Origin: Hygrophila difformis
Lineage: Eukaryota > Streptophyta > Magnoliopsida > Lamiales > Acanthaceae
NCBI GenBank assembly: GCA_030278955.1
Contig: JAOANR010000013.1
Location: 42,444,191-42,508,190 of the forward strand
Reading direction: 5' to 3'
Length of the DNA: 64,000 nucleotides
In this document: piece by piece, positions 20,533 to 62,935 of the stretch
How the letters are laid out: each line of letters opens with the position of its first letter
How positions within the stretch are numbered: the stretch's first letter is position 1
Notes under the pieces: generated by a model
The model's input: the letters and a program-made list of their open reading frames with translations, nothing else
What the model was told of the DNA's origin: nothing
The model's database searches: none
Made by a program: the position numbers and the translations under genes

Positions 20533-20537
20533 TCAAA

Positions 20538-33344: not shown

Positions 33345-33706
33345 TTACGATTTACTAGAAAGAAAAGAAAAAAAAAAAAAAAAAAGACAAGACATCATTG
33401 AAGAAGTGAACAGGGACGGCCTCGGACAATGATGGCGGCGGCTGTTGTAATTTGCCGTCGGCAGTGATGCACCGCCGTAGAGCTCGGCGGGGACGGCGGT
33501 GGTAGTGACAGAAGGTGCAACATTGGGGGATAAGGCGGTCTGATTGGTTAGTGTCGGCCCCGGCGGCGGCGCTCTCGTGGTGTTGTTTTGGCTTTGTTGT
33601 GTGGGCCGGGTCAAGCTTATGCGATACTTTTGCAAATGGCTCGCCACGTGTTCTCTCCTTAGCTCTTTTATGTCCATCATGTGGAGGATTTCCTTGGGGC
33701 GGGCTT
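33345..33706 (-). pseudogene. ARR-B-like response regulator, exon with second half of the GARP domain
   Basis: After an acceptor (CTAACAG) the exon starts in phase 1 and reads ARPKEILHMMDIKELRREHV, then ASHLQKYRISL. This is the second and third helix of the GARP (Myb-like) DNA-binding domain of type-B response regulators. A Pro/Thr/Ala-rich linker follows, and the frame ends near 33,345. The phase and sequence continue exactly from the exon piece at 46,890-46,917, 13.2 kb upstream on this strand. Because the upstream exon is cut by a transposon, I call the gene broken in this haplotype. Confidence 0.82.
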
Positions 33707-33841
33707 CTGTTAGAAAGATTTTTGACAAATTTATATAATAATCTAAAACAAAATAGTCTAACACACACGCACTTTTCCGCCCAAATATTTTCTCCTCACA
33801 AAATCCATTTTTTTACATTCTCTCTCACACACTAAATTATT

Positions 33842-34640
33842 TACAGTTCTGCCACCGGACCGTGCTCCACATCGATGATAATTACAAATATGCCATGGAC
33901 CGTGCTCCAATTTCTATATTAAACCTGCATCTCATTTATTCCCTTCCTCCTATAAATATGTGTATTATAACCCACCTCAAAATCATATCCTACATCTTCA
34001 TCTAACATTTCTCTCAATATTATAGCTTTTGTTCCATTTAACAAATATATCTCCCACCATTTTATAGCTTTTCTTATTCAATTTCATGTTTCTTTCTCCC
34101 TCTTTTGCTAATATCTTTGTTTTCTTTTGTTATTGTTTTGGTGACAGTTATTGGAACAACGAGAGTACAAACTCAAGTGACGAAGAACATTTTGAATGGA
34201 TGAAGAGCTAAGGAATATTCATAATCATAAAAGATTAAATGAATTGTTGTGACATCTTCTTCTATGACAAATAAATCTCCCCGCCATTTTATAGCTTTTA
34301 TGATTCAATTTCATGCCTCTTTCTCCTTTTTTTGCTAATATTTTTATTTTCTTTTGTTGTTGTTTTGGTGACAGATATTGGAACAACGATAGTACAGACT
34401 CAAATGACGAAGAGCATTTTGAATGGATGAAGAGCTAAGGAATATTCATAATCATAAAAGAATAAATCAATTGTTTAGTTGTTCTTTTTGTGGAAAGATT
34501 TGTTCCACCGAGTGTAAATAATTGGATGAGTTTATTAGTTATAGCATTATTTTCTCAGGATCTTTTGTATTTTATTCAATAAGAGAGTTTCGAATTTGTC
34601 CATATCATTTTTATCCATGTTCTATTCTCAATTACTCTAT
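33842..34640 (+). repeat. Promoter-like segment and tandemly duplicated intron-exon cassette
   Basis: A TATA-like box (CCTATAAATATG, about 33,951) is followed by two ~227-bp direct copies beginning near 34,043 and 34,269. Each has a CT-rich tract, an acceptor (TTTTGGTGACAG) and a short frame ending in stop that encodes YWNN-S-T-S-DEEHFEWMKS with small differences. The second copy is followed by a poly(A)-signal-like region. It looks like the leader of a transposon-derived gene; the family is unknown. Confidence 0.5.
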
Positions 34641-34642
34641 TC

Positions 34643-36480
34643 AATGATTGATTAATATCAAATCAATTCTATTCTCAAGTTAAATATGACAATGTTGAAT
34701 TATCATTGCTTTAAATTAAATTAAAACGAAATGATCCCATAATTAAAGGATGTAATTTGGAAATCATCATTGCTAATTTGATAGCTAAAAATGATAGTTT
34801 ACTTTAATGGGTAGATCTTATAATATTAGATAACTAATTATAAAATTTTTGAATGGATGAATTAATAATGGAAAATGATGATGAAAAAATTAATATGTCA
34901 AAAATTAGCATTCAATAATTGATTAATATCAAATTAATTCTATTCTCAAGTTAAATATGACAATGTTGAATTATCATTGCTTTAAATTAAATTAAAAGAT
35001 TATATTTAAATTCTAACAAATTTTTTATTAGATCAATTGGCTAATTATAGCAATAAGTTTATTAATTATAATATTAACTTTGAAGAAAATATTGTGATGA
35101 TTTAATATAGATACTACGTTTTGAAATGGATTTTATCTATATTGGCAACTAAATCTTTCCATTTAAATATATTCACATATTGGAAACTAGATATTAAATA
35201 AAATATGAAAACTAAATATTAGAATATGTATTTTTAAAATAAACCATTCTAAATATGTGTTTTTTAATTTTAAAAATGTATTTTACATTATTAGATCCAA
35301 AAATCATAAATATTTAAATCATTGTACACTAATAGAGAATGAAATGATCCCATAATTAAAGGATGTAATTTGGAAATCATCATTGCTAATTTGATAGTTA
35401 AAAATGATAGTTTACTTTAATTGGTAGATCTTATAATATTAGATAATTAATTATAAAATTTTTGAATGGATGAATTAATAATGGAAAATGATGATGAAAA
35501 AATTAATATGCCAAAAATTAGCATTCAATAATTGATTAATATCAAATTAATTCTATTCTCAAGTTAAATATGATAATGTTGAATTATCATTGCTTTAAAT
35601 TAAAAGATTATATTTAAATTCTAACATATTTTTTATTATATCAATTGGCTAATTATAGCAATAAGTTTATTAATTATAATATTAACTTTGGAAAAAATAT
35701 TGTGATGATTTAATATAGATACTACATTTTGAAATGGATTTTATCTATATTGGCAATAAATCTTTCCATTCAAATATATCCATATATTGGAAACTAAATA
35801 TTAAATAAAAAATTAAAACTAAATATTAGAATATGTATTTTTTAAAATAAGCCATTCTAAATATGTGTTTTTTAATTTTAAAAATGTATTTTACTTTATT
35901 AGATCCAAAAATCATAAATATTTAAATCATTGTACACTAATAGAGAATGAAATGATCCCATAATTAAATGATGTAATTTGGAAATCATCATTGCTAATTT
36001 GATAGTTAAAAATGATAGTTTACTTTAATTGGTAGATCTTATAATATTAGATAACTAATTATAAAATTTTTGAATGGATGAATTAATAATGAAAAATGAT
36101 GATGAAAAAATTAATATGCCAAAAATTAGCATTCAATGATTGATTAATATCAAACTAATTCTATTCTCAAGTTAAATATGACAGTGTTGAATTATCATTG
36201 TTTTAAATTAAAAGATTATATTTAAATTCTAACAAATTTTTTATTATATCATTTGGCTAATTATAGCAATAAGTTTATTAATTATAATATTAACTTTGGA
36301 AAAAAATATTGTGATGATTTAATATAGATACTACGTTTTGAAATGGATTTTATCTATATTGGCAACTAAATCTTTCTGTTCAAATATATCCATATATTGG
36401 AAACTAAATATTAAATAAAAAGTGAAAACTAAATATTAGAATATGTATTTTTAAAATAAACCATTCTAAATATGTGTTTT
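34643..36480. repeat. Tandem array, about 610-bp unit, roughly 3 copies
   Basis: The marker word GAATGGATGAATTAATAATG occurs at about 34,851, 35,464 and 36,072 (periods 613 and 608). A second marker (TTCTATTCTCAAGTTAAATA) recurs with the same spacing, plus one truncated copy at the left. Units are highly similar. Diverged partial copies continue to about 43,400. Confidence 0.85.
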
Positions 36481-38452
36481 TTTAAGATAAATAAAGCAGA
36501 TGGGGATGATGGAGGGAAATAAAATATTTAGGATATTGAATATAATTTTTCTATGAAATGATTTTTAACTGAATTGCAACTAAATCTACTTATAAATTTA
36601 TCCGTATTTTGAAAACACAATATCAAAAAAAAATGAAAACTAAGTATTATCCCATAAATAAAGCAAAGATGATGGGATAATTGATTTACATTGATTAAAT
36701 TGATTTCCATTGGATAAACAAAAATAAAATGTTGACTATAGACAATGTAATGATTATGGAAAGAGCAAAGAATAATCGTAAAAGATGAGATGATCAATGG
36801 AACTAAATAAATTACCCCTTAAATAAAGTGGAGGAGCAATTGGCTATATGGAATTAAAATATGATAATGTTAAATATGACAATAATAAGTTAGTCAGGTT
36901 AAATATGACAATGTTACATTATCATTGCTTTAAATTAAAATATTATATTTAAATTCAAAAAAAATTGTATTATAGCAATTGGCTAAATATGGCAATAATA
37001 AATTTATTATATTATTAACTTTGAAAAAAATATTGTGATGATTTAATATAGATACTACGTTTTTAAATGGAATCATTGAACATATCATTTTATAATCAAT
37101 TTATTGTGATTTATTTTAGTTATAGATATATTGTGATGATTTAACATTAGATAGTTATTTAAATATATTCTTATTTTAGAATCGTTTTAATTATACTGGC
37201 AACTAAATGTTTTCATATAAGTATATCCATATTTTAGAATCATTTTATTTATATTGGCAACTAAATATATCCATATTTTGGAAACTAAATATTAATTAAA
37301 TAAAAAATTAAAACTAAATATTAGAATATGTATTTTTTTAAAAATAAACCATTCTAAATACGCGATTTTAAATTTTAAAAAAAATGTGTTACTTTATTAG
37401 ATCCAAAAATAATAAATATTTAAATCATTTACACTAATAGAGAATGAAATAATCCCATAATTAAATGGTGTAATTTGGAAAACATTATTACTAATTGGAT
37501 GGTTAAAAATCATGTCAAAATGATAATTTACTTTAATTAAGTATATATACTATGTATCGTTTGGTAGATCTTATAATATTAGATAATAAATTATTGAATC
37601 CGATATATGTTATGAAGATATTATTGACATTTATGTTAATAATCGCAAATTTATTTTATTATATATATATCAAATAATTTTTTACAATATTGGCCACCTT
37701 GAATAATTTGGAAAGAGATTCCGGCTGCTCAATTTAAGTGCACAATTTTTGGGATTAATTAATAATAGAAAATGATGAAAAAATTAATATGCCAAAATTA
37801 TAGCACGGATTAAATCTAATTTAAACAAAAAATAAAATATGTATTATTAATTATATGGTAATAAAATAATGATGGAGAAATCATGATGATAATAAAATAT
37901 GTATGTAATATGTATTAATTATTTTATTTGTGCAAATGAGATTTGCGGTGATGGGGAAAGCAGATGCAGAATTTTTACAATGGGGATGATGGAGGAATAT
38001 AAAATATTTAGGATATTGAATATAGTTTATCTATCAAATGATTTTTATTTATATTGACAACTAAATATTTCCTTATAAATTTATCCGTATTTTGAAAACA
38101 CAATACAAAATAAAAAAAAATGGAAACTATGTATTATCCCATAAATAAAGCAAAGATGATGGGGTTATTGATTTCCATTGATTATATTGATTACATTGAT
38201 TAAATTAATTTACATTGATTAAACTGATTTCCATTGGATAAACAAAAATAAAATGTTGACTATAGACAATGAAATGATTATGGAAAGAGCAAAGAATAAT
38301 CGTAAAGGATGAGATGATCAATGGAAATAAATAAATTATCCCTTAAATAAAGAATAATTAATGTAATTTAGCCATTCAACTATTACTATAATTTTTACAA
38401 ATACGATATTTTATTTATTTGTGGTGAATAATGAATCCATATTAGGAATTTA
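36481..38452. repeat. AT-rich diverged repeat blocks
   Basis: Contains diverged copies of the neighbouring array (36,890-37,480) and a block at about 37,780-38,452 that recurs beyond the LINE at 39,025-39,680. No coding capacity. Confidence 0.6.
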
Positions 38453-38470
38453 TTTATGGATGGGAAAGTT

Positions 38471-39006
38471 TCTTGGAGGCTGAATTTTCTGTTGAAGCCA
38501 ATACTGGAGGTGTTTAGTTGTGTGGGAGAGTTTCGAATTCAACATATATTACGAGAAAGAAATGAGGTTGCGGATCACTGGGCAAAGATGGGAGCGACAC
38601 AAATGGAGAAGGTAGAAGAATGGCTATAACTCGAGACTGGTGTGCACTTTCATGACTATTTCTGATCAGTGGAATGTTGCAGAGGTGGCTTTGGATGAGA
38701 ATGGTTAAACCTGGGCTTAAGGATGTCACATGCGGTCATCTCTGTAAGGCTTGTCTCTGATTACTTCTATCCAAGCTGTTGGTTTTCTGTTGGAATAGGT
38801 GGTTTTCGGGAGAGGTGTTATTGGCTTTGGTTTTTTTTGGTTGCTGTATGGTCAGCTTTTGTTTATGCTATTGCTGTTTCTGTCTGTGGCATGGTTCAGG
38901 TTTGAATGCCTGAAAGGGGCCGTAGGTTGATAATGTGTAACAAAAGTTTGTACTTTGCTTGGTTTTGCTTGGTAATAAGATGATCCTTTTATCTCAAAAA
39001 AAAAAA
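38471..39006 (+). mobile_element. 5'-truncated LINE (non-LTR retrotransposon)
   Basis: 536 bp ending in a poly(A) run. It is flanked by an 18-bp duplication, TTTATGGATGGGAAAGTT (38,453-38,470) and the same word with one change at 39,007-39,024. Near its start one frame encodes QHILRERNEVADHWAKMG, the end of the RNase H domain typical of plant L1-type LINE polymerases, followed by a stop and 3' untranslated sequence. Confidence 0.88.
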
Positions 39007-39024
39007 TTTATGAATGGGAAAGTT

Positions 39025-39948
39025 AATATGCCAAAAATATAGCACGCATTAAATCTAATTTAACTAGAAAAATAAAATATGTATTATTAATTATATAGTA
39101 ATAAAATCATGATGTTAATAAAATATGTATGTAATATGTATTAATTATTTATTTATGCAAATGAGATTTGTGGTGATGGGGAAAGCAGATGCAGAATTTT
39201 TACAATGGAGATGATGGGGGAAATAAAATATTTAAGATATTGAATATAATTTGTCTATGAAATGATTTTTAATTATATTGCAACTAAATCTTTCCTTATA
39301 AATTTATCCGTATTTTGAAAATACAATATCAAATAAAAAAAATAGAAACTAAGTATTACCCCATAAATAAAGCAAATATAATGGGGTAATTGATTTCCAT
39401 TGATTATATTGATTACATTGATTAAATCAATTTACATTATTAAATTGATTCCATTGGATAAACAAAAATGAAATGTTGACAATAGACAATGAAATGATTA
39501 TGGAAAGAGCAAAGAATAATCGTAAAAGATGAGATGATCAATGGAAATAAATAAATTACCCCTTAAATAGGAAAAATTAATGTAATTTAGCCATTCAACT
39601 ATTATTATAATTTTTACAAATTCGATATTTTATTTATTTGTGGTGAATAATGAATCCATATTAGGAATTTATTTATCGATATAAATAATATTCAATTTAC
39701 ACTTAAATCCATGTATTAACCTAAAATTATATGCAAAAGTTTCCAGCCTAAAACCACTAGCCTAATTTTTTGTTAATAATCTCAAAAAGTGAAATTAATT
39801 CTATACTCAAATAATCCCTTCAATGTTAGATTTATGGGATTGTATTCTCAATTTCACAAAAAGGAAATGTTTAATATAAATAAATAATGAAATGATTTCA
39901 ACCATGAGTTTATTATGTCATTAATTTTAATTGACTTTTTTATTAACA
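39025..39948. repeat. Second copy of the 37,780-38,452 block and AT-rich DNA
   Basis: Shares the words GGTGATGGGGAAAGCAGATG and AGAATAATCGTAAA in the same order as the first copy. The two copies were adjacent before the LINE entered at their junction. No gene seen. Confidence 0.65.
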
Positions 39949-40164
39949 TTAAGTTTCAATATAACATTTATTGGTCCTTACAAGTTAAATATGAAAATGT
40001 TAAATCATCATTGCTTTAATATAAAATATTATCTTTCATTTCTAAAAAAATTTGTATTATAGCAATTGGCTAATTATAGCAATAAGTTTATTATAATATT
40101 AACTTTGGAAAAAATATTGTGAAGATACTATGTTCTGAAATGGAATCGTTTAACATATCGTTTT
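39949..40164. repeat. 216-bp direct repeat, copy 1, flanking the Helitron-like insert
   Basis: Begins TTAAGTTTCAATATAACATT and ends at CGTTTT. A copy of equal length lies at 42,641-42,856. Confidence 0.8.
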
Positions 40165-40283
40165 TTCAATATATCTATTAGTATTGTTCCCACAATTTTA
40201 CCTTTTTTATTCCCACAATTTTAAGTTTTTATTTATTTATTTTAAAATCTTAGATTTTCAATATATCTATTAGTATTGTTCAC

Positions 40284-40316
<33 letters not shown>

Positions 40317-42640
40317 CTATTAGTAATAAGCATAATTTGTTTCTAGTGAGTTTGTGTCTAAAGGTTTAATTATTTACTCCTTCGGTTTCACGAAAGTTGG
40401 CACGTATTCGCTTTTTAGTATCCCACGAAATTTGGCCACTTTTTATTTTTAAATAAATTAAATTAATATAAATATGATTAGAATCTTAATTATTTTCAAA
40501 TCCTATTAAAAGTAACCATTTTTACTATTCTGCACAAATTCCAATACACTTTTCTTTTTCTATACAAAATTCCTTGCATTTCTTAATTTTTAATATTTCA
40601 AAATGGGTACAAATAAAAATTGTATAAAATATATATTCTGAAACTAGACACTTACATGATTCTACCAAGACTACACTTGAATATTAAAATATGATAATAT
40701 TTAGTCAAAGTTAAACAATAAATAACGTCAAAATTCATTAGAATTTTAAACATAAATACTTTTCTTACTTTAATCACTAAACCCCCACCACCTGAACTAG
40801 ATTTTTGTATTTTTTATTTATTTATTTATGCATTTTCAAAGATATAATAATGTGGATATAGAAATCTCATTTTCAGTTTAAAAGATATGAAATTTCCAAT
40901 TTATGGAATTTTAATTTTTTTTGATTGGTAGAATGATTATGAGCCAGTGTGATTTAATTAATTTACACATTCGATTTCAAATGAGAAAATTCACACTGAC
41001 AGTTTGTTTTGCTATTACTAAAAAAAATATCAATGCCAATATTTAAAAAATATTGGATTCTATTTCCAAAAACCAGTTTTTAGCCACAAATATTTATACA
41101 CCTATTACAATATCTCATGTCACTAGAATTAGGGGATTCAAGGTATTAATATGTAATAAAAATGGATTAACTAAAGATATTACAAGAAATGTTGTTTACA
41201 ATAAAAGTTATATATGGCAAAAATTTGCAAAATGGATATTTCAAGGATGTGATGGTAATTGATAAAGTTGATATTGATCTTGGAGATGTACAATTATATG
41301 TGATATTTCCAGATAATATTCTTATAAACTCTACAAGAGATCCTATAGCGTCAATTGTTGAGATTAAATATATAAATATAACTGCACTACTTCAACTCTA
41401 AATATTTTTAAAGATAGCGTTATACTAACCTATACCAATGAGATGGTTGATACGATCAATTATTACATCATGAAATATATGTCTGCAAATGAAAATGTAT
41501 ATATATATATCCGTTCTAACAATATTTGTCAAGAGGATGAAAGCATAGGTAATGCCAATGAATTATTTCCACTTGAATATCTAAACACGATTAATTGTTT
41601 TAGATGACCAAATCCTGAATATTGTTGAATGAGGGTTGCATAGTCATGCTTCTTATGAATATAGATCCTTCAAATAAACTATGCAATGGAAGTAATAGTA
41701 ACCAAGATGCGAAACCATATAATTGAGGTTAAACTAATTTTCGGGAAACCATGAAAGTAAAAAAAATTCTTGATTAGTAGAATGATTATGAGTTATTTTT
41801 TTTAAACCAGATTTCGATTTCAGATGAGAAAATTTCACTGTAGTTTGTTTTGCTATGATTATCAACAAAAGTCAATGTCAATCTTTAAAGAATATTGGAA
41901 TTATATTCCAAAATCAGATTTTAGTCATGAACAGTTATGTTGCAATATATGTGTCACTAGCAAGATGTGGCTCAAAGTATTAATATGCAATTATGAAGGA
42001 TTAACTCAAGATACCACAACAAATGTTGTTTACAATGAAATTTATATATGACATAAAATTTTCAAAATAGATACTTGATGTAGGTGATGGTAATGCCGGT
42101 ATTGATTTTTGAGATATACAATCAGATATGACATTTCCGAATTTGGGTAATCATATAGCGGCAATCTTTTCAAGTATATAAAGTAGTAATATAAACTGCA
42201 ACACTTCAAATTCAGACATTTAAAGATAGTGTTATATTAGCCCATACCAATGAGATTTTTAGCAATGAAATTCTCAGCAAATTGTAAGGGAATTTTTCAT
42301 ATTATGTTTAATATTTATATTTAAATTTTATTTTATTTTAATTTAAACATCGAATTAAATAAAATATTATTTTAATAATTATTTTTATTGATATGTTTTA
42401 AGTTTGTACCGGACAAGCTACATAAGCTAAAGAAGATGATATAATATGTTTTCTTTGTTGTTTTAAAAATAATTTAATTATATTATCATATACATCATCT
42501 TTCAAACATATATAAAATTATTACACATTTTTCATTATTGAAAATATAATTTATTATTACTTTAAACTATAATATAAATATATATTATATAAAATATATA
42601 ATTATACCCGTCGAGTCTCGAGGGTTACTTAATAGTCTAG
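40165..42640 (+). mobile_element. Helitron-like insert (about 2.5 kb)
   Basis: The right end has a GC-rich imperfect hairpin (CCCGTCGAGTCTCGAGGG, 42,607-42,624), then TTACTTAATAGT and CTAG at 42,637-42,640 followed by T, the form of a Helitron 3' end. The left boundary begins TCAATATATCTATTAGTATT (TC start). Helicase/Rep is absent, so it is non-autonomous. Two degenerate, mutually similar coding-like pieces (41,053-41,400 and 41,824-42,050, both with KVLIC and TTN/TRNVVYN words) suggest a captured or decayed repeat-bearing gene that I cannot identify. Confidence 0.55.
40375..40790. mobile_element. Truncated Stowaway-like MITE
   Basis: Starts TACTCCTTCGGTTTCACGAA at a TA. It follows the same internal order as the 4,951-5,436 element read in reverse, but the second terminal repeat is missing. 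Confidence 0.7.
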
Positions 42641-42856
42641 TTAAGTTTCAATATAACATTTATTGGTCCTTACAAGTTAAATATGAAAATGTTAAATCAT
42701 CATTGCTTTAATATAAAATATTATCTTTCATTTCTAAAAAAATTTGTATTATAGCAATTGGCTAATTATAGCAATAAGTTTATTATAATATTAACTTTGG
42801 AAAAAATATTGTGAAGATACTATGTTCTGAAATGGAATCGTTTAACATATCGTTTT
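42641..42856. repeat. 216-bp direct repeat, copy 2
   Basis: Copy of 39,949-40,164. Unlike copy 1, it continues into the sequence AGAATCAATTTATTGTG that is also present in the related block at about 37,100, so this copy keeps the ancestral right context. Confidence 0.8.
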
Positions 42857-43756
42857 AGAATCAATTTATTGTGATTCGTTTTAGTTATAGATATATTGTG
42901 ATGATTTAACATTAGATCAAGTTGTTTAAATATGTTCGTATTTTAGAACTGTTTTATTTATATTGGAAACTAAATCTTTTCATATAAGTATATCCGTATT
43001 TTAAAATTATTTTATTTATATTGGCAACTAAATCTTTCCATAAAAATATATCCGTATTTTGGAAACTAAATATTAAATAAAAAATAAAAACTAAATATTA
43101 GAATACGTATTTTTTAAAGAAACCATTCTAAATATGCGGTTTTAAATTTTAAAAAGTGTGTGTTACTTTATTAGATCCAAAATCATAAATATTTAAATCC
43201 TGTACACTAATAGAGAATGAAATGATCTCATAATTAAAGGGTGTAATGTGGGAAACATTATTCCTAATTGGATGGTTAAAAATCATGTCAAAAATGATAA
43301 TCTACTTTAATTTTGTATATTTACTATGTATCGTTTGGTAGATCTTATAATATTAGACAACTAATTATAAACTTTATTAAAAATCTATTACCATTTAAGT
43401 GTTATTTCTATCAAATTAAAAGAGGTTATAGATAAATTATTGAATCCAATATATTTTATGAAGATGGTTGATATTTATGTTAATCATCGCAAATTTATTT
43501 TATTATGTATATATCGAATAATTTATTACCATATTGGCCACCTTGAATAATTTGGAAATAGATCTCGGCTGCTCAATTTAAGTGCATAATTCTTTGGATT
43601 AATTAATAATAGAAAATGATGATGGAAAAATTAATATGCCAAAAATATAATACGGATTAAATCTAATTTAGCAAAAATATGTATTATTAATTATATGGTA
43701 ATAAAATCATGATGGAGAAATCATGATGATAATAAAATATGTATGTAATATGTATT
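42857..43756. repeat. AT-rich diverged repeat block
   Basis: Related to 37,100-37,930. No gene seen. Confidence 0.5.
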
Positions 43757-44642: not shown

Positions 44643-44652
44643 AATATGTATT

Positions 44653-46819: not shown

Positions 46820-46889
46820 TTATTACTAGAAAAAAATAGTAAGACGTAATATTTACAGGAGAAATTTATTGGTAATGGATCGTTCTTAC

Positions 46890-49783: not shown

Positions 49784-50069
49784 ATGCCGCCGCGCCGGGA
49801 TGGAGAGCCCAGGAGGAGAGGAAGGCCTCGTAGGAATCAGGGGCCAGCTACTGGGGGTCGTGGACAGTGCCATGAGAATGGTGGACTTGGCAATGATCAC
49901 GTGGAAAATGTTCCAATTGAGGAACCTGTAGAGGTGGAGGATGACTTGAACTATGAGGACGAACCAGTGCCTCCACCACCACCGCCACCGGTGCAGATGC
50001 CCATTGATCCTCAGTTTATGCAACATATGTTTAATGCTATGCATGGGATGTATCAGGGGCAGGCGAATC
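49784..50069 (+). CDS. gag: Outer element gag, N-terminal part, cut by the inner element
   Basis: Opens with MPPRRDGEPRRRGRPRRNQG, a basic start typical of chromovirus gag, then an acidic/Pro-rich stretch. It is interrupted after 95 codons and one base by the inner element. The frame resumes exactly at 58,070 once one GAATC copy is discounted, so gag was intact when the inner element landed. Confidence 0.85.
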
Positions 50070-53000
50070 TGTAACACCCCAGATTTTTATCAACGTCCAA
50101 GGGAATAAAAATTTATTCCGATCAACGTTGAAATAATTCCGAGAAGAAGAAAATAATTTATTACAATAAATTATTGCTCGGAAATAAAACGCCGATAGAT
50201 TTAAATTCAAAATGGAATAAAAGAGGGAAAGGAAGCCCGAAGACATTCCATGAATTGAGTAAAAATAATTGGAATTAAATTCATGAAGGAAAAGAATTTT
50301 AATTCCAAGAACCCGTGAAGTCGAATTACACGGGAATAAAAAGACGACGGATTAGAAGCCGACAAATCCGAGACCGACGGACTTAAGATTTCAAACATGA
50401 AATTCATTTGAGTCAAGATAAACTTAAGATAAGGATTTAGGACCGAGAATGACCCGAAAAATCGAGGCCGAAAACGTAGGAGGATAGAAATCCGAAAGAG
50501 AGGAAGAAAAGCACGACGGATCGCACGACCCCGCCCGGACCGAAGTCCAGGCGTGTTCGGCGCGCACCCGGCGCGCTAATCAAGGGAAAACCGCGCCAAC
50601 AGCGCGCCAATGCAGCAGCAGCTGCGTTTGTCGCGTTTTGGCGACTTTCTCGCCAATTTTCGGGGCCCAAGTGAAGAATCTCGATCTATCACGGGTGTAG
50701 CATCTTTTTGGATGTTATGTAATCAATCCTATCCCCATTTGTCAGCCATTTCATCAATCATTCACCCCAAACTCTCCAAAAACTCTCCCAAAAGCCAAAC
50801 ACTCTTCCGGCGACTTTCCGACGAGTTTCCGGCAACCAAATCCAACCAAGGAAGTGTGTAGATCAAGGATTGCAGGCTTTGGATTGTTGGTAAGATGTTA
50901 TTCAAGTTTCCATATGATTTTAAGATCATAAACATCATCCTAACTTACGAATCTTCGTATTCAAACACAAATCGGAGCCAAGGGAAGAATAGATCGGGTG
51001 GAAGAGATTCGTTCGTGACATCCCGTGGATTCCGGACGACCCCGTGACTTCCTAAACATCATCCCCACTGTAAGTTAACCTTACTATGGTTTTGGGTGAC
51101 TTAAAATGCAACCAAACATAGAGATTCAACTCAAGAAAATTAATAAAAATCTGTCAACAAGAGAAACCCTCAACGCAGCGTTTTTGTGTGAATTTTTCGA
51201 ACCTCTTAAGCTGCTCAAACAACAAAACTCAAAACATGAAAAGTGTTCCTAAGACTTTGATCTAGCTTCTGTAAAAATTTCATAATTTTTCATGATGTTT
51301 TGAAACCTGAAACCAACCCAAAACCGAAGAGTATTAAACCTGGATCTTAGAACTTTGGACAGATTTCATTCTCAATCTTGTTAGCTATTTTTACCTTAGA
51401 TCTAGACCGATCTAGGATTGGTGTTGAACATAAGAATTGTAGATCTATGAGTTTAGAACATCTCTGTAAATTTTTAGAATTTTTCGTTGAGATTTGAGCC
51501 TCCGAATCTGAGCCGATCCAATCTGCGTTAGTACCGAAAATCAAGAATCTTGATAGATTTCATAATCAAACACGACGAGCAAAACTCTTACTTCGAGTGT
51601 TCAAACCTGAAAACTCAAAACTAAGATTTTGATCCAAAGATCATAATCTATATTGTGTAAAAATTTCAAAGATTTTCATCAAGTCTTGATACCCCGAATC
51701 ATATCGGACATATTCTGCGTTTTTAAGAATTGTCAAAGGATGACAGATTTCATAGCCGATCTTGATGAGCTTATTCCTATCATTTCTAGCCGAACCAATC
51801 TATGTGATCTAAATAAAAGTTGTTGGAAATCATGTCTAGTATGTCTCTGTAAAATCTCAGAATTTTTGAAGCTCATTTGATATGTTAAAAAGTCAAATCT
51901 TTGAGATGTGTCAAACCTGAATCCTGACAGCTTTTTGTTTCTGAAGAAAACTTGATTTTTGACATGCTTCCCATCGTTTTTCCGAAAAACTTAAAACACG
52001 AAAGTTGTTCGTTGGGATGTTTTTGAGCTAATGTACAAATTTCAGAACAATCGCCTAAGAAATGGATTTTTAAATCAAAAAGGCGCAAACTGTGACATCG
52101 ATCGATTTTTGAAATCTTTTAAACAACGATCGAGAAGTTGGAATTACGATAAAGCTATATTTTTGAAAATCCCGTTACACCAAATAAAAACATTTTCTTA
52201 AAAGAATTCTTTTGAAACATTGGGGAATTTATGACCAAGTTTGATATGATCAATATGGCCAGACGGCTTGTGGACATAAGAGCCCAAGCGAACGGCTAGT
52301 GGACATAAGAGCCCTAGCGAATGGTCGACCAAACGGCTTGTGGACATAAGAGCCCAAGCGAACGGCCAGTGGACATAAGAGCCCTGGCGAATGGTTATTC
52401 ATAAATATTGATTATGAGGATTGCGGTCACAAGAGCCCTAGTGAATGGTGAACTATAAAAGAAACGAAAAATATTTTGAGAAGTGATATTTTTGAAATTG
52501 GCTGAGGCCGCCGGATTGCCGGCTAAATGATACTTTTGAAATTGGCTGCGGCCGCCGGATCACCGGCTAAATGATATTTTGATGAAATGGTTATGTAACG
52601 GGAGAACAAAATATTTAAGGTTTTTAAGTCTTTATGCCTTGCAAATCATTTCCTACAAGAAATCTTTTTACTAAATTTAATTAAAGGCTTTGAAACCCCT
52701 AACCCATGCTATGTGTTAACTTACTCAGCGCGTTTTTGCTGACCCAAACCATATATATCCTTTTTCTTACAGAGAATGAAGAATATGCATCATCATATGC
52801 ATACTGGGAATTTTTGGGGATTACATCATGAACGGGTCTGTTTAACCCGTGTTTTGGCCATGTTGGCCCTTATACATTATTTCCGCTGCACAAATCAAAA
52901 TTTCCGCTGCAACTTTGATGTATTATTTTTAAATTATCTATGAATGGGCTGTTTGAATATTTTAAATCCTGAAAAACCATAGCCTTGCATCTCTTTAGTG

Positions 53001-53078
53001 AGCTCGGAGAAACCGTGTCTTGCTAGGGAGGTGTGGCGGTGGCACCCCGGCCTGGGTTATCAAATCCGGGGTGTTACA
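50070..53078 (+). repeat. Left LTR of the inner element (3,009 bp)
   Basis: Has a CpG-rich patch at about 50,550-50,650. It also has a four-fold ~35-bp repeat at 52,262-52,395 built on GTGGACATAAGAGCCC, and a two-fold repeat GGCCGCCGGAT..CCGGCTAAATGA at 52,500-52,575. Small ORFs inside are not genes. Confidence 0.9.
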
Positions 53079-53655
53079 GAATGGTATCAGAGCCCAGATT
53101 ATTTTAAATCTATCTATTTTAAAGAAAATATCTGATACCAAGTATGGTATCAGAGCCCAGACTATTTTAAAACTACTATTTTAAAGAGTTCGGAATATTT
53201 TTAAACTATTATTTTCAAGTGTTATTATTTTTAAAGTTATCATTTCTAAACTAATAATATATTTTAAGGATCCCAATTATTATTTTGAAGTTAAGACCCA
53301 AATTTTTAGCCCAAAATTTTTTTTTTGGGGGCCCAAGAAATTATCTTGGCCCAATAGCCTTGTTTTTATTTAAAGCCCAAATACTTTATTTCTTTCGGCC
53401 CAATATAGTGGCCCAAACCTTTTATCCTTATTTTAATCTATCCATGGAATAAATTTATTTTTAAAACCCATGGATAAATAAATGCATACATAAATATCTG
53501 TACTAACTTTTTGTGAATCGTATGTGATACATAACCGTCTCACTCTAGTGTTCGACATGATCTTGACTTAGGAGCGCTTGCTAAAGACTAACTTTGCCTT
53601 AGTCCTAGATCTCGATCACTTAGAAATTCATCTTCGCGTGCTTCTATAGCAGAAA

Positions 53656-54702
53656 ATGACACCTAGAAGAAAACTGAGGAAGGTAAGCCCAAACGGCACT
53701 GACACTAATCTCCCAAACGCACCTAACAATGAGATTCCTCCGAACGTCGGAGATCGAGCGCCTCCTATTCCCAACAACATGGATGAACGTTTAAGGACGG
53801 TAGAAGAAGTACTCATAGTATTAGGGAATGCCGGGGTGCATAGGGCACAAGCGACAATACCTCCGCCAGTAGCCCGAGTCAACTACTTGGCATTGGTAAA
53901 CCCCTACAATCCACCCCATTATAATGGCCAAGAGGATCCGGCCAAACTGGAAGATTGGATTCGCACCTTTGATAAGCTCCTTAGCGCTATCAAATGTCCC
54001 GAGGACGAGAGGGTCCAAGTGGCGACCTACTATCTTGGCGGAGAGGCCGACGAATGGTGGCATAACCTCCAAGGAAATTTGACTAAAGCCTACCTATGGG
54101 AAGAATTTAAGGAGGTTTTGAGGGAAAGGTTTTACCCAATGAGCATTAAGGCCGCAAGGTATGAAGAATTCGTCCATTTGAAACAAGGTGGGCAAACAGT
54201 ACAAGAGTACTATGCCAAGTTTAGGGAGCTGGTTAGATTTGCTCCTACAATGGTGCCAACTGACTTCGACAAGGCTCAGAAGTTCGAGATGGGTTTGAAT
54301 CTTGATATTCGAGAGATATTGGTGGGAGGACAATGCACGACGTTGCAGAAGGTATATGACCGGGCAGTAGCAGTCGCGCGTGTCCAACAATTAAAATGAA
54401 AGGACAATGGCGAATCGAGCAAAAACTCGCAAGGATTTGAGAAGAAGAATCGTAATAAGAACAACAATAATAACTTTAGGAGGGGCAATGATCAAGCTAA
54501 ATTCGATGGGTCTAGAGGAGATGGCAACCGTGGTGCGTTCATACCACGCTGCCCACGATGCAACCATGCACATTTGGTGCGCCAGTGCCCGAAGCCTGGA
54601 GCCTGCTATAAGTGCGGCAAGTTTGGTCACAAGACTAGGGAATGTCAAACCCATATTGAGAATATAACCAAAAGAGATGACCTGGTCGCTGGACCTAACT
54701 AG
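53656..54702 (+). pseudogene. gag: Inner element gag with one in-frame stop
   Basis: From ATG 53,656 the frame encodes a retrotransposon gag domain (YNPPHYNGQEDPAKLEDWI, GGEADEWWHNLQGN, EYYAKFRELVRFAP). A TGA at 54,397-54,399 interrupts it. The same frame then continues to 54,702 with two zinc knuckles, a variant CPRCNHAHLVRQC and a classical CYKCGKFGHKTREC. Without the stop it would be a complete capsid + nucleocapsid protein of about 348 residues. The element needs RT and integrase from elsewhere. Confidence 0.85.
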
Positions 54703-55055
54703 CCACAAGTAACCAAGGGGGGGAGGATGTAATACCCGTATTTCGAAACTCGAATATTTTGTATCCCAAATAAATTTTTGAACTACGTAATGACTTGATC
54801 CCTTCACAGGGTACGTAGGCAACTTGGAAATTTCAATTCTGGGTTCAGTCAAACAATAATCAAACAATAATCAAACAACAAACAATAATCAAACAATAAT
54901 CAAACAGTAATCAAACAACAAACGACGATCAACAATCGAACAATAGTTCGATAACACAACATCGCAAATAGTAAACAAATAGGACCATAACTCTTCGCGC
55001 GAGAAAAGCCGAAGCACAACTTCGGGGACGAAGTTGATTCTTAAGGGGGGGAGAG
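54703..55055 (+). other. Inner element 3' interior with A/C-rich repeat
   Basis: After the gag stop there are CAAACAATAAT-type short repeats (54,852-54,925) and then the polypurine tract. No protease or polymerase remnant is seen. Confidence 0.6.
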
Positions 55056-58000
55056 TGTAACACCCCAGATTTTTATCAACGTCCAAGGGAATAAAAATTT
55101 ATTCCGATCAACGTTGAAATAATTCCGAGAAGAAGAAAATAATTTATTACAATAAATTATTGCTCGGAAATAAAACGCCGATAGATTTAAATTCAAAATG
55201 GAATAAAAGAGGGAAAGGAAGCCCGAAGACATTCCATGAATTGAGTAAAAATAATTGGAATTAAATTCATGAAGGAAAAGAATTTTAATTCCAAGAACCC
55301 GTGAAGTCGAATTACACGGGAATAAAAAGACGACGGATTAGAAGCCGACAAATCCGAGACCGACGGACTTAAGATTTCAAACATGAAATTCATTTGAGTC
55401 AAGATAAACTTAAGATAAGGATTTAGGACCGAGAATGACCCGAAAAATCGAGGCCGAAAACGTAGGAGGATAGAAATCCGAAAGAGAGGAAGAAAAGCAC
55501 GACGGATCGCACGACCCCGCCCGGACCGAAGTCCAGGCGTGTTCGGCGCGCACCCGGCGCGCTAATCAAGGGAAAACCGCGCCAACAGCGCGCCAATGCA
55601 GCAGCAGCTGCGTTTGTCGCGTTTTGGCGACTTTCTCGCCAATTTTCGGGGCCCAAGTGAAGAATCTCGATCTATCACGGGTGTAGCATCTTTTTGGATG
55701 TTATGTAATCAATCCTATCCCCATTTGTCAGCCATTTCATCAATCATTCACCCCAAACTCTCCAAAAACTCTCCCAAAAGCCAAACACTCTTCCGGCGAC
55801 TTTCCGACGAGTTTCCGGCAACCAAATCCAACCAAGGAAGTGTGTAGATCAAGGATTGCAGGCTTTGGATTGTTGGTAAGATGTTATTCAAGTTTTCATA
55901 TGATTTTAAGATCATAAACATCATCCTAACTTACGAATCTTCGTATTCAAACACAAATCGGAGCCAAGGGAAGAATAGATCGGGTGGAAGAGATTCGTTC
56001 GTGACATCCCGTGGATTCCGGACGACCCCGTGACTTCCTAAACATCATCCCCACTGTAAGTTAACCTTACTATGGTTTTGGGTGACTTAAAATGCAACCA
56101 AACATAGAGATTCAACTCAAGAAAATTAATAAAAATCTGTCAACAAGAGAAACCCTCAACGCAGCGTTTTTGTGTGAATTTTTCGAACCTCTTAAGCTGC
56201 TCAAACAACAAAACTCAAAACATGAAAAGTGTTCCTAAGACTTTGATCTAGCTTCTGTAAAAATTTCATAATTTTTCATGATGTTTTGAAACCTGAAACC
56301 AACCCAAAACCGAAGAGTATTAAACCTGGATCTTAGAACTTTGGACAGATTTCATTCTCAATCTTGTTAGCTATTTTTACCTTAGATCTAGACCGATCTA
56401 GGATTGGTGTTGAACATAAGAATTGTAGATCTATGAGTTTAGAACATCTCTGTAAATTTTTAGAATTTTTCGTTGAGATTTGAGCCTCCGAATCTGAGCC
56501 GATCCAATCTGCGTTAGTACCGAAAATCAAGAATCTTGATAGATTTCATAATCAAACACGACGAGCAAAACTCTTACTTCGAGTGTTCAAACCTGAAAAC
56601 TCAAAACTAAGATTTTGATCCAAAGATCATAATCTATATTGTGTAAAAATTTCAAAGATTTTCATCAAGTCTTGATACCCCGAATCGTATCGGACATATT
56701 CTGCGTTTTTAAGAATTGTCAAAGGATGACAGATTTCATAGCCGATCTTGATGAGCTTATTCCTATCATTTCTAGCCGAACCAATCTATGTGATCTAAAT
56801 AAAAGTTGTTGGAAATCATGTCTAGTATGTCTCTGTAAAATCTCAGAATTTTTGAAGCTCATTTGATATGTTAAAAAGTCAAATCTTTGAGATGTGTCAA
56901 ACCTGAATCCTGACAGCTTTTTGTTTCTAAAGAAAACTTGATTTTTGACATGCTTCCCATCGTTTTTCCGAAAAACTTAAAACACGAAAGTTGTTCGTTG
57001 GGATGTTTTTGAGCTAATGTACAAATTTCAGAACAATCGCCTAAGAAATGGATTTTTAAATCAAAAAGGCGCAAACTGTGACATCGATCGATTTTTGAAA
57101 TCTTTTAAACAACGATCGAGAAGTTGGAATTACGATAAAGCTATATTTTTGAAAATCCCGTTACACCAAATAAAAACATTTTCTTAAAAGAATTCTTTTG
57201 AAACATTGGGGAATTTATGACCAAGTTTGATATGATCAATATGGCCAGACGGCTTGTGGACATAAGAGCCCAAGCGAACGGCTAGTGGACATAAGAGCCC
57301 TAGCGAATGGTCGACCAAACGGCTTGTGGACATAAGAGCCCAAGCGAACGGCCAGTGGACATAAGAGCCCTGGCGAATGGTTATTCATAAATATTGATTA
57401 TGAGGATTGCGGTCACAAGAGCCCTAGTGAATGGTGAACTATAAAAGAAACGAAAAATATTTTGAGAAGTGATATTTTTGAAATTGGCTGAGGCCGCCGG
57501 ATTGCCGGCTAAATGATACTTTTGAAATTGGCTGCGGCCGCCGGATCACCGGCTAAATGATATTTTGATGAAATGGTTATGTAACGGGAGAACAAAATAT
57601 TTAAGGTTTTTAAGTCTTTATGCCTTGCAAATCATTTCCTACAAGAAATCTTTTTACTAAATTTAATTAAAGGCTTTGAAACCCCTAACCCATGCTATGT
57701 GTTAACTTACTCAGCGCGTTTTTGCTGACCCAAACCATATATATCCTTTTTCTTACAGAGAATGAAGAATATGCATCATCATATGCATACTGGGAATTTT
57801 TGGGGATTACATCATGAACGGGTCTGTTTAACCCGTGTTTTGGTCATGTTGGCCCTTATACATTATTTCCGCTGCACAAATCAAAATTTCCGCTGCAACT
57901 TTGATGTATTATTTTTAAATTATCTATGAATGGGCTGTTTGAATATTTTAAATCCTGAAAAACCATAGCCTTGCATCTCTTTAGTGAGCTCGGAGAAACC

Positions 58001-58064
58001 GTGTCTTGCTAGGGAGGTGTGGCGGTGGCACCCCGGCCTGGGTTATCAAATCCGGGGTGTTACA
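55056..58064 (+). repeat. Right LTR of the inner element (3,009 bp)
   Basis: Same length as the left LTR and almost identical (about four substitutions by eye). Confidence 0.93.
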
Positions 58065-58069
58065 GAATC

Positions 58070-58998
58070 AACCTGCACAACCACCACCCAGACCCGTGGA
58101 TTACGTGCATCTAGCAAGGCATTATCAACCGCCGGTCTTTAGTGGAGGAGTAGACCCGGTTGCTCTGACTGATTGGATTTATCATATGGAGGAGATCTTC
58201 GAGAATATAGACTGCCTAGAGGATTGGAAGGTCAGGGTGGGACGACAGTATCTTACCGGACCAGCTCTCCATTGGTGGAGGTCGCGTAAGAGTGAGCTTA
58301 TGGCGAGACCCAACTTCTCATGGGGAGTTTTCTGTCATGCTTTGAGATCCCACTTTTTCACTACGCAGATGATGAATGTTAAGAAGAGGGAATTTCTCAA
58401 CTTAGAGCAAGCAGGAAATATGACAGTGTCTGAGTACTATGGTCGTTTTGTGGAACTCATGTCATACGTACCAATGCTAGTTGCTGATGAGGAAGATAAG
58501 GTTTCGAAGTTTGTGGATGGATTGAAGGCTGAGATCCGGACTGGGTTTAGCAACCAACACGCCTGCTTAGCTTCAGCATATGATCAGGCTTTATTCATTG
58601 AAAGAGCTCGTGCTGATGTGCAGCGCGTGTGGGCCGCTCGTCGCAGGGAGTCAGGGGGGCCGATTAAACCCCATCATAGGCAGACGAGGCCGAGAAGCGG
58701 TGGAGAGACCTCTAGGCCTCAGACTTATGCACAGCCACCGTATAGAAGCGGACCCCACTGCTGGAATTGCGGACAACAAGGACATTTGAGGTCACAGTGC
58801 CCACAGTTGGTAGGTCGAGTAGGAGGATCTACTTCAGATGCGTCTGGTGGGAATGCGTCGCGTGGACGAGGTGCAGACAGAGGTCGTGGACCACAGGGGA
58901 ACCGTGGGGGCCGCCTCAATGTGATTGAGCGGGCTGAGCTAGATGGGCGAGATGATGTCATGACTGGTAAGTTGCCCATTGTTCAATTTCAATCTTGA
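58070..58998 (+). CDS. gag: Outer element gag, C-terminal part
   Basis: Resumes the gag frame split by the inner element: gag domain (VFSGGVDPVALTDWIYHMEE, GPALHWWRSRKSEL, SEYYGRFVELMSYVP), then a zinc knuckle CWNCGQQGHLRSQC near 58,760 and a Gly/Arg-rich tail. It ends at a TGA. The protease lies in another frame downstream. Confidence 0.87.
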
Positions 58999-59020
58999 TC
59001 GACGTAACCATCTGTAACAA

Positions 59021-59512
59021 GTGCCCCAGGTAGTGTCTTATGTTATTACATGCGTAGGTACTATACTAGTTGATAATGTGCCTGCTTATGCCTTATATGA
59101 TTCTGGTGCATCATGCTCGTTTATATCATCGGAATTCGTAACTAATAATGATATGGGACCACTGGAGGCTTATCAACTCCCTGTTACGCTACCTTCGGGA
59201 GACCTCATGCGGAGCCAGTGGATTAAACCCGATGCACAGATAATCATCAAAGATCGAGAGTTCAGAGCGAATCTAGTGGTGCTAGATTTGGCCGATTTTG
59301 ACGTGATTTTGGGAATGGATTGGCTGTCTAAGTACCAAGCCAGATTAGACTGCGGGATACCAAGGATTTCCTTCACCGATGAAGAAGGTGAGCAAGTGGT
59401 TTATTACCCTCCTAACATTCGAGTGGTATCTTCTGTCACTTTTGCAGCTTTAATTAGAAAAGGGTATCCGGTATACTTTTGTTCTGTGCGTGATATGACG
59501 CCCTTGTGTTAG
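59021..59512 (+). CDS. Outer element aspartic protease part
   Basis: Retropepsin-like domain: catalytic YDSGASCSFIS, then LDLADFDVILGMDWL, the standard Ty3/gypsy protease pattern. It is in a different frame from gag, so it needs a frameshift or has been shifted by an indel. The frame ends with TAG at 59,510-59,512, just before the deletion junction. Confidence 0.85.
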   Translation: MPQVVSYVITCVGTILVDNVPAYALYDSGASCSFISSEFVTNNDMGPLEAYQLPVTLPSGDLMRSQWIKPDAQIIIKDREFRANLVVLDLADFDVILGMDWLSKYQARLDCGIPRISFTDEEGEQVVYYPPNIRVVSSVTFAALIRKGYPVYFCSVRDMTPLC

Positions 59513-59520
59513 AGTGATCC

Positions 59521-60090
59521 TTCAGAGCGAGTGGTGATGGGTCCTGAACTCATTGAACAGACCACTGAAGTGGTACGAGTGATCAGAGACAGAATGAAGG
59601 AAGCTCAGGATCGTCAGAAGAGTTATGCTGATTTGTCCAGGAGAGACATTGAATTCGAGATTGGAGATTGGGTACTCTTGAGAGTGTCACCCATGAGGGG
59701 CGTGAGACGATTTGGGAAGAAGGGGAAACTGATCCCAGATTTATAGGCCCCTATGAGATCACTAAGAAGATTGGGAAGGTCGCTTACCGGTTAGAATTGC
59801 CAACTGAGGTGGGAAAGGTGCACAACGTTTTCCACGTCTCTCAGTTGAGGAAGTTTATCTCGGATCCTGACAAGATTATACAACCGGAGGAGGTGGAGTT
59901 GGATGACAACCTAGAATACGAAGAATACCCCGTGGCGATTCTCGACACTAAAGAAAAGGTACTTCGCAATAAGGTGATCAAAATGGTGAAAGTACTTTGG
60001 TCGAGACATGGCGTAGAGGATGCCACTTGGAAGACAGAGGAAAGCATGGCTGGGCGTTATCCTGAATTGGATTTGACTCCAATTCAGTGA
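59521..60090 (+). pseudogene. Outer element integrase C-terminus with chromodomain-like tail, frameshifted
   Basis: Starts directly after the protease with ERVVMGPELIEQTTEVVRVI, a region that normally follows the integrase core. So RT, RNase H and the core are deleted at about 59,505-59,530. The GPY/F module follows (RFIGPYEITKKIGKVAYRL and HNVFHVSQLRKF), then a chromodomain-like end (KVLWSRHGVEDATWKTEE). A 1-base frameshift lies near 59,730, between KKGKL and the GPY block. Confidence 0.85.
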
Positions 60091-60150
60091 AGTAATGACC
60101 TTAATCCACACTTTTTCATTCGAGGACGAATGATCCTAAGGGGGAGAGAT

Positions 60151-62705
60151 TGTAACACCCCGATTTAATTAACTCATAATTAATTAATTTAATTATGGTT
60201 AATTAACAAAAGACTTAGTATGTGGATTATTTTGTAGGAAATGAAAATTTAAGTGGGGGAAATAAGTGAGTTCAACTCACAAGATAGTAAGAGTCAAGTG
60301 CTCAAATGGGTGCAATGTGGTCAAGACAAGTGGTGTAGACCTTTTAACCCACATTCCGACCCGACCCGGATCCATCTTACCCTTAAAAATCAGATTTTGG
60401 GTGTTGGAAACCCATTTCCTCATCTTCTCTTCCCCTCTCTTCCCTCATTCCCGTCACCATTTTTGGGAAGGCTAGGGTTGGTGCCAAATCCTCCCAAATC
60501 CTTGATTTTATGCTCAAATCGGTTGGGGTTTTGGTCAAGATAGTTGGGGTAAGTATTTCTCTTGCAATTTCCTTGCTTTTTCATGTGTTTGGAAGGGATT
60601 TTGGGGGCTGTTTTTGAAGTGACGAAAATTGGGGATTTTTGTCAAATCTTATAGATCGGCTTGGAATTTGTGTTAAATCCTTGATTGGGAGTTGCAAATC
60701 AGTTTTGGGAGTTAAGGTAATGCTTTTGGTTGAGTAATTTCAGTTTTTGAGCTTCCAATGGGTTCATGATGAAGAAATCATGTTCTTGGATGATTTTTGA
60801 TGTTTGGAGTTGATTTTTGATGTTTGGATTGGATTCTTGTAATTTAGGCTTGGAATTTCAGATTGGAAGCTTGGAGGTTGAGAAGAGGAGCTTGGAGACT
60901 CATCTACATATCAGACAAGGGTAGAGATAGGCCTAAATGGGGGCATAATCGGTGGAATGGCCGGAAACCGCCATTTCCATCGTTTCTGGTGTGTCGGCGC
61001 GCACTTGGCGCGCCCTTTAGCCAAACAGCGCGCGATTGAACGTCACGACGTCCGAGTCCCGCGCGGGGTTGGCGCGGTTTTCTTGAGAAAACCGCGCGGG
61101 GAGCGCGCCAGCTCCCCTGCCCGCGCGATTCTTTCGCTCGTTTTCCGATCCTTTCTCCTTCGTGTTTCCTTAGTTCTTCTTATGCTTCTAGCATGCCATA
61201 ACTATCATTATGCTCACAATCTTTGAACTTAGTTGCGATTAGCGGTGATCTACTATGCCTTAGTTGAGATCGAGTCTTGTTTCGCTTCTATGTTGATGTG
61301 AGTGTTGGTGCCGATATGTGGGGTTTGGCACACCCTTGACACTTAACTCGTGGTGAGTTGTTGATTTTGTCATGACGCGTAATTTACGTATTGACATGTG
61401 TGGAATTGAATCTGAATATGTGTTGATGCCGATACGTGGGACTTGGCACACCCCTGATTATACTTAACTCGAGATGAGTTGTTTATTTTGTCCTGATGCG
61501 TGGATTTACGTATGGACATGTGATTGAATTGAATCTGAATATCTGTGATGATATGAAATGCCACGACGGTAGGATACGCTATGCTTACGAGTCGGTATCC
61601 GATTGGGCATAGTGGGATCTCTACCCAGAAGCATTGATACTGTGATGATATGTGAATATCTGTGATGATATGTGAATATCTGTGATGATATGAAATGCCA
61701 CGACGGTAGGATACGCTATGCTTACGAGTCGGTATCCGATTGGGCATAGTGGGATCGCTACCCAGAAGCATTGAGACTGAAAAAGGATTTACATCCTAGT
61801 CTGATTTTGGCTGGAAAGGGCTCATGACCCTTAGCCTGACCCGCTTGCCGTAAGCCACGATCTCAGCTGTTAGTGTCCGCGGCGGGGGCACTGTGGGTAT
61901 GTCTCTCGACCATTAAGGGGAGTGGACCCTTATATGGGAGGGAATACCGACCATGGTACCTAGGTGCGCGCTAGGCATGCTTATGTGTTGCATTTAGGGT
62001 AGATAGACATTCTAGGTCATAACATTTCATCTCATCATCCATCATTCATCTTATTTGCAGTGGTTGAAGCACCGGTATGGGACGGTGTGATGTTTACTTA
62101 TTTGCACTGTTTAATTTTTATGTTACGCCTAACAAATGTTTAATAATGGAATATATCTCCACCTATATGTATAAATATACTTCTAGGGAATCAAGTTAAT
62201 TCTTGTTTCCCCTTATGCCGATTCTTCTATTCTTGCTCAGTACCTTGTACTGACCCTTGCTATGTTTTCATGTATAGATATTCCCGGGGAGGACGCAGAG
62301 CCTGAGCACGATGTGGGGTTTGGGGATGAGTGATCTACCTAGAGATGCATTAGCATGTTGTGGACTTATGTGCTTGTCTTGAATAATATGCTATGACTCT
62401 ATTACCTTGTCTCGTACTGCTTGTGGTACCGATCGGTACATTATGTTCTGTCTTGTGTGTTACTTAATATCTCTGACAGGTTGAGATGAGACTGATATGT
62501 CGACTGTTATGTCGCATGAATAAGGCTTGTAAGCCGGACGTCTGTTATGATGTGAGGTTTCCTTTCTGGATTTGTATTATGATTCATTGGCTTCCTGTTA
62601 CTTGGCTACGTGTTATTGATCTTAAATTGATTGGCCAACAGTTTAAGAGAGGTAACACGGCAGTGACGTCACAAAAATTTGGTTTTAAATTTTTGGGGCG
62701 TTACA
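60151..62705 (+). repeat. 3' LTR of the outer element (2,555 bp)
   Basis: Copy of the 5' LTR lacking 11 bp in the GCGCGC repeat patch (near 61,030) and with one extra A near 61,783. It ends inside the ARR-B-like exon. Confidence 0.92.
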
Positions 62706-62935
62706 ACTTCCACGAATTTTTTGTGCAGCTCCGGCGTCCAAACAAGTCTCATTTTCTTGGAGGAGGGGTCCGCCTCCGCCGTTCCTCCGCCTCCGCCGCC
62801 ATTTCCACCGGCGACCATATCGTCATTAACATTGACTTTAAGGAGTTGCTTCCTGACGACATGCTGCCACATGATCACCCGGACATCTTCCATCTGGATG
62901 GGCTTCTCGAGAAATGTACAGACCCCATATTCCAT
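62706..62935 (-). pseudogene. ARR-B-like response regulator, receiver end + first half of GARP, disrupted
   Basis: After an acceptor (ATGGCAG) the exon reads MEYGVCTFLEKPIQMEDVRV then WQHVVRKQ, the end of a phospho-receiver domain with its conserved Lys-Pro (FLEKP). A Gly-rich linker follows, then KKMRLVWTPELHKKFVEV, helix 1 of the GARP domain. At 62,706-62,710 the LTR element begins, and translation would run 9 residues into the LTR before a stop. Upstream exons with the phospho-accepting Asp are not in view. Type-B response regulators are the DNA-binding outputs of cytokinin signalling. This allele cannot make the DNA-binding domain. Confidence 0.85.

Follow-up and report, generated by a model that had tools for sequence, protein, structure and literature searches.

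A decayed type-B response regulator copy with layered mobile-element insertions in Hygrophila difformis

A stretch of 64,000 nucleotides of the Hygrophila difformis genome (contig JAOANR010000013.1, here C5; C5:42,444,191–42,508,190), referred to below as the window, was analyzed; positions are counted from its first base. Three pieces of its minus strand are parts of one type-B response regulator copy, whose GARP exon is interrupted by a young long terminal repeat (LTR) retrotransposon that itself hosts a second such element. The copy is very probably a decayed member of a small, divergent type-B cluster that was hit by mobile elements in several layers, so that the young insert struck a pseudogene. 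The locus was not described in titles or abstract beginnings among the literature matches listed.

The interrupted GARP exon

The ancestral copy consisted of receiver exons, an exon 3 extending from the receiver end into GARP, an intron of approximately 100 bp and exon 4. The corresponding parts in the window are:

62,706–62,936, minus strand: exon 3, middle part; receiver-domain end (KPI..WQHVVRK), linker and GARP start
46,890–46,912, minus strand: exon 3 tail past the insertion; donor GTAAG at 46,889
33,707–46,889, minus strand: intron 3 as present, 13,183 bp
33,345–33,706, minus strand: exon 4; GARP second half (KARPKEILHMMDIKELRREHVASHLQKYR) and truncated C-terminus

The exon at 62,706–62,936 breaks off inside GARP helix 1, exactly at the LTR end. 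Joined to 46,912–46,890, with one copy of the ACTTC/GAAGT duplication kept, it reads ...WTPELHKKFVEVVDRIGLE and ends at a GT donor in phase 1. Exon 4 is preceded by a TTTCTAACAG acceptor and is read from 33,706 in the matching phase. The joined domain is a full SHAQKYF/GARP domain (TIGR01557, 71–72 bits with a cut-off of 29.3), and PF00249 was matched as well. With 62,706–62,936, 46,912–46,890 and exon 4 from 33,706 taken as pieces A, B and C, the TIGR01557 scores were 15.7 bits for A alone, 24.3 for A+B, 35.1 for C alone and 50.0 for A+C, a wrongly joined control without B. Among 127,940 join points tried on both strands of the window, the claimed one was the single best, recovering 7 of 8 residues of the peptide of the intact paralog L012 (one of the 8 scored residues is already fixed by the exon itself), and the runner-up recovered 6 of 8. 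The joined frame is open over 204 codons in the window. When the receiver lying outside the window is included, the protein also matches PF00072 above the cut-off (2.4e-8) and keeps the phospho-acceptor aspartate of LCDV. A megablast search of the exon against plasmids gave no match.

The junction claimed by an earlier, sequence-only reading of this DNA is real. Its view that the three pieces form one gene with an uninterrupted GARP domain agrees with the TIGR01557 score, the join test and two intact paralogs in the same genome, L011 and L012. Both carry an intron with the same ends as the phase-1 donor proposed at 46,890 and the matching-phase exon at 33,706. Alignment to ARR-B proteins was suggested there as a check; against ARR1 structures, the joined peptide gave a match in GARP and a weak one in the receiver tail.

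Young LTR retrotransposons inside the exon

46,918–62,705, plus strand: outer LTR retrotransposon, Ty3/gypsy type, 15.8 kb; LTRs 46,918–49,482 and 60,151–62,705
46,913–46,917: target-site duplication ACTTC, left copy
62,706–62,710: target-site duplication ACTTC, right copy (part of exon 3)
To 58,998, 59,021–59,512 and 59,653–60,090: gag, RVP_2 protease and integrase C-tail of the outer element
50,070–58,064, plus strand: inner LTR retrotransposon, located within the outer element; LTRs of about 3,009 bp

The LTRs of the outer element (2,565 and 2,555 bp, TG..CA ends) differ by 6 substitutions in 2,554 aligned sites and by 2 indel events, and its target duplication is matched at 5 of 5 bases. 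The inner LTRs differ by 4 substitutions in 3,013 sites, with the target duplication GAATC at 50,065–50,069 and 58,065–58,069. These data bear out the earlier description of a young nested LTR element inside the GARP exon. Substitution rates for such dating range from 1.3e-8 to 7e-9 per site per year. Over both rates and the 95% limits, the age of the outer element is 0.03–0.36 million years (My) and that of the inner element 0.01–0.24 My. The two divergences do not differ significantly (p 0.53), and the inner element is placed after the outer one because it is nested in it.

In the outer element, TGGTATCAGAGCC follows the left LTR and a purine run precedes the right one; we take these to be the primer-binding site and the polypurine tract. 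A chromodomain signal under the cut-off was found at the integrase C-tail. No reverse transcriptase, RNase H or integrase core was found in the frames scanned at 58,006–60,090, with the left internal piece of about 0.6 kb (49,483–50,064) lying outside the scan. The inner element contains Retrotrans_gag (2.1e-17) and a zinc knuckle of 20.7 bits, just under the cut-off of 20.8; beyond these, no domain was found in the three frames scanned. Judging by their coding content, both elements look non-autonomous and, since no reverse transcriptase was found in either, presumably depended for their movement on enzymes from complete relatives. Repeat units 70 bp apart were also observed inside the inner LTRs (52,259–52,395 and 57,245–57,381).

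A probably older insert in the same exon

62,937–64,000, continuing to window-equivalent position 66,118 (L009:128–3309): second LTR-type insert in exon 3, TG..CA ends

The sequence-only reading placed the upstream limit of the exon at 62,935. This limit is actually an insert edge (62,936/62,937). The remainder of exon 3 and the receiver exons are located past the insert, at L009:3310–3807, 3.18 kb from 62,936, and all four paralogous units compared (L011, L012, and the units L13a and L13b of locus L013) run on continuously upstream of 62,936, without an intron. A splice acceptor at 62,935, which the frame and the Salvia alignment fitted at first, was rejected on the evidence of these four units.

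The target duplication of this insert is GATGG/GATAG, matched at 4 of 5 bases. Between its LTR-like repeats, 17 of 481 sites differ when a minisatellite is set aside, and 31 of 637 overall. Compared with 6 of 2,554 in the outer LTRs, 17 of 481 corresponds to an approximately 15-fold rate (Fisher p 8e-10). A search with the first 1 kb of the insert returned at least 41 matches, two of them within the insert itself, with 40 of 1,941 candidates scored; the number of candidates indicates that the family is large.

A Helitron-like insert in intron 3

33,742–46,819, plus strand: Helitron-like insert in intron 3, 13,078 bp; internal repeats and termini as described below

Of the 13-kb intron described earlier, the splice ends stand and are shared with the paralogs; the host intron itself is only about 100 bp long, and the rest is an insert of about 13.1 kb. 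With the paralog intron used as the empty form to set the insert limits, the host intron comprises 33,707–33,741 and 46,820–46,889, that is, 105 bp. In L011 and L012 it is 97 bp long, with the same place, phase and ends, and both paralogs are uninterrupted at the two exon-3 insertion sites.

Helitrons start with 5′ TC, end with a 3′ hairpin followed by CTRR and insert between A and T with no duplication. Here, A at 33,741 is followed by TC from 33,742, and a 3′ hairpin with a 7-bp stem (z-score −2.85) and CTAG extending to 46,819 are followed by T at 46,820. These termini agree with the rule, and the insert is classified as Helitron-like on this basis and on that of the helicase-like peptides mentioned below. 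It contains an RVT_3 (RNase H-like) fragment at 38,435–38,629. No helicase or Helitron domain was found by Pfam in the ten frames tried; some peptides of the insert, without a Pfam match, are presumably helicase-like.

Intact paralogs and the cluster on C5

In the 915-Mb assembly, all eight DNA matches of the exon, itself included, are located on the same strand of C5 at 42.507–42.790 Mb. Of at least 20 matches from the protein search, 10 fall in this cluster and the other 10, located elsewhere, have 36–53% identity, mostly in the GARP part; these counts cover scored candidates only, and more distant paralogs are possible. L011 (458 amino acids) and L012 (472 amino acids), approximately 42 and 64 kb past the window end, are complete genes with GT-AG introns, Response_reg and Myb domains above the Pfam cut-offs and a long C-terminal region.

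Locus L013 (C5:42,788,500–42,790,200) consists of two GARP-less units fused in the order receiver, linker, C-terminus, receiver. The receiver of unit a contains two stops, yet the reading is open from its exon 3 into the receiver of unit b. A conserved receiver aspartate is replaced by proline in 5 of 5 cluster units, and the phospho-acceptor aspartate is kept. We offer as a tentative and rather unlikely idea that a Lamiales lineage carries a fast-diverging, clustered non-canonical type-B clade whose receiver, linker and GARP blocks undergo reshuffling by unequal recombination, and that fused units could compete as GARP-less receivers in the cytokinin phosphorelay.

Family placement of the fragment

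The best relatives of the fragment were Salvia ARR11-like (47% identity) and ORR26-like (44%) proteins. Together with the 93% identity of the adjacent ATG16 frame to Paulownia, they point to a probable Lamiales genome. The protein relatives were 120 of 2,552 passing, among the matches listed. From a set of 139 proteins, 17 early hits (APRR2-like, short), 3 proteins without the receiver pattern and 1 without SHLQ were left unused, giving 118; removal of 3 without the GARP start pattern and 9 of other length (including three Salvia relatives one residue longer) left 106. The GARP domain of the fragment is 59% identical to the relatives' consensus, and the 106 same-length relatives all reach at least 76%. 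A tree of the fragment (42 rows) was uninformative, with a long branch and 22 of 39 inner branches left open.

Other lesions and selection on the broken copy

The intron-1 acceptor is CAA in the broken copy and CAG in all four other units (L011, L012, L13a and L13b). The 5′ leader (MESNAKG...) is a linker/C-terminus fusion, with an in-frame TAG between the leader ATG and the receiver. The exon 4 match to L012 stops near 33,477. At E 1e-3, neither the window nor any of the ten loci searched matched the last approximately 180 residues of L012, apart from L011 and L012 themselves. A 16-residue match (75%) to the odd C-terminal tail of the broken copy was observed at L012:3227–3274, about 3 kb downstream of the intact L012 gene. 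With the AA acceptor, the stop before the receiver and two inserts in exon 3, the copy does not qualify as a functional gene.

Changes at conserved positions were counted in the 46 GARP columns that reach at least 90% conservation in a set of 117 relatives (P0143–P0259; the short Salvia relatives were left out). Five of these columns are changed only in the broken copy (V>L, G>R, K>E, T>R, N>H), one only in L012, none only in L011, none in both intact copies only and nine in all three. Of 93 conserved receiver columns, 10 are changed in the broken copy alone, three in L012 alone, three in L011 alone, four in both intact copies only and 41 in all three, the aspartate-to-proline change among them.

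The ratio of nonsynonymous to synonymous substitution rates (dN/dS) was calculated with the two stop codons of L13a masked. For the receiver of the broken copy against its two nearest units, it was 0.52 (0.25–1.19) and 0.68 (0.28–1.65), limits that are wide and include constraint; the other comparisons gave 0.22–0.40. In introns 1 and 2, 8.3% of sites differ.

Order of events and alternative explanations

An LTR-type insert interrupts exon 3 near the end of the receiver (62,936/62,937), and intron 3 has grown to 13 kb through a Helitron-like element. Exon 3 is interrupted a second time, inside GARP, by a gag-protease LTR retrotransposon, which a gag-only element later entered. We infer that the older exon-3 insert preceded the young insertion; the 5′ stop and the change of the intron-1 acceptor were probably earlier as well. 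The young insertion would therefore have struck a copy that was already a pseudogene, with little or no functional effect.

The sequence-only reading had instead proposed that a working cytokinin-type transcription factor was broken by the young retrotransposon, a recent loss that is perhaps still polymorphic. This was ruled out as the leading explanation by sequence past the window, namely the older insert and the acceptor change, and we regard it as clearly unlikely. In its favor are the very low divergence of the outer LTRs, the good splice sites of the GARP intron, the prevalence of dN/dS values of 0.22–0.40 and the open joined frame, which is improbable after long neutral drift. Against it stand the insert in the same exon, with repeats about 15-fold more diverged and a mismatched target duplication, the AA in place of AG at the intron-1 acceptor, the stop in the 5′ leader, the lack of a C-terminal match in the loci searched and the private changes at near-invariant GARP residues.

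Several observations weigh against the reading of a decayed copy struck by the young insert. The two nearest units compared with each other gave a receiver dN/dS of 0.40 (0.11–1.02), and GARP compared with L012 gave 0.22 (0.09–0.42). In a rough simulation, neutral drift to 55–67% identity kept 204 codons stop-free in 2–6% of runs. The open frame of this length and the GARP value of 0.22 thus indicate that most of the divergence arose under constraint and that the decay is recent on that scale, and the GARP splice sites are good. Single-base lesions are not datable singly and could be later than the young insertion. From 17 of 481 sites, the older insert is dated to 0.8–4.0 My over both rates and the 95% limits; this age may be too high, as its second repeat aligns only in part (about 640 bp), and it shrinks if the repeats differed already on arrival. 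All dates depend on the substitution rates assumed. We nevertheless prefer the decayed cluster member struck by a young insert.

The inserts could also be spliced out as new introns, with a shorter protein still being produced. In Brassica rapa, LTR elements are reported to serve as new introns (PMC9241368), and the splice sites of the GARP intron equal those of the paralogs. This is very improbable, given the changed intron-1 acceptor and the need for precise removal of both 15.8 kb and 3.2 kb. An assembly error that joined unrelated pieces is hardly credible: repeats of 2.5–3 kb may mislead assemblies, but the outer and inner elements have exact 5-bp duplications and TG..CA ends, the coding phase is complementary across the insertion, the same order is found in the in-genome paralogs and the window lies within a 47-Mb contig.

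The preferred reading makes the locus a clean case of layered transposon decay in a regulatory gene copy, with intact in-genome copies as controls. It illustrates that the time of a gene's death cannot be read from low LTR divergence alone, as the neighboring exon-3 insert looks much older. The event is true but ordinary in kind, and the divergent cluster, some of whose members are intact, merits study more than the broken copy does.

Neighboring features in the window

16,493–19,461, minus strand: ATG16 gene with introns, matched in three blocks, the long one at 93% identity to Paulownia; synteny anchor next to the cluster
19,858–32,499: further Ty3/gypsy-type LTR element, target-site duplication ATCTG, 9 substitutions in 656

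The ATG16 open frame at 16,490–17,680 was considered as a processed retrocopy, which was rejected: the blocks with the first residues are located upstream and are split by introns. The element at 19,858–32,499 has antisense open frames in its 3′ part, one of them with a plant mobile domain (30,071–31,651, PF10536).

Comparison with known systems

Type-B authentic response regulators (ARR1/ARR10/ARR11 type) have the same receiver and GARP/Myb-like architecture. The window copy differs from them in being broken, with a divergent GARP, a conserved receiver aspartate changed to proline and the long C-terminal activation region unmatched. Non-canonical type-B response regulators of legumes were expanded by tandem duplication (PMC6518804). 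Both systems have lineage-specific clustered copies, some of them with altered receivers or short C-termini. The cluster on C5 belongs to another lineage, keeps the phospho-acceptor aspartate and includes two GARP-less units fused receiver to receiver, which sets it apart from the legume genes.

In Brassica rapa, MYB18 and FLOR1 carry exonic LTR retrotransposon insertions that vary between accessions (PMC9241368). The likeness lies in an LTR element within a plant coding exon; in contrast to those cases, the window gene copy bears further lesions. The inner element resembles the TR-GAG non-autonomous elements (PMC8704663) in that the only clear coding domain found between its LTRs is gag. With gag, protease and an integrase tail retained, the outer element looks like a deletion derivative rather than a strict TR-GAG element.

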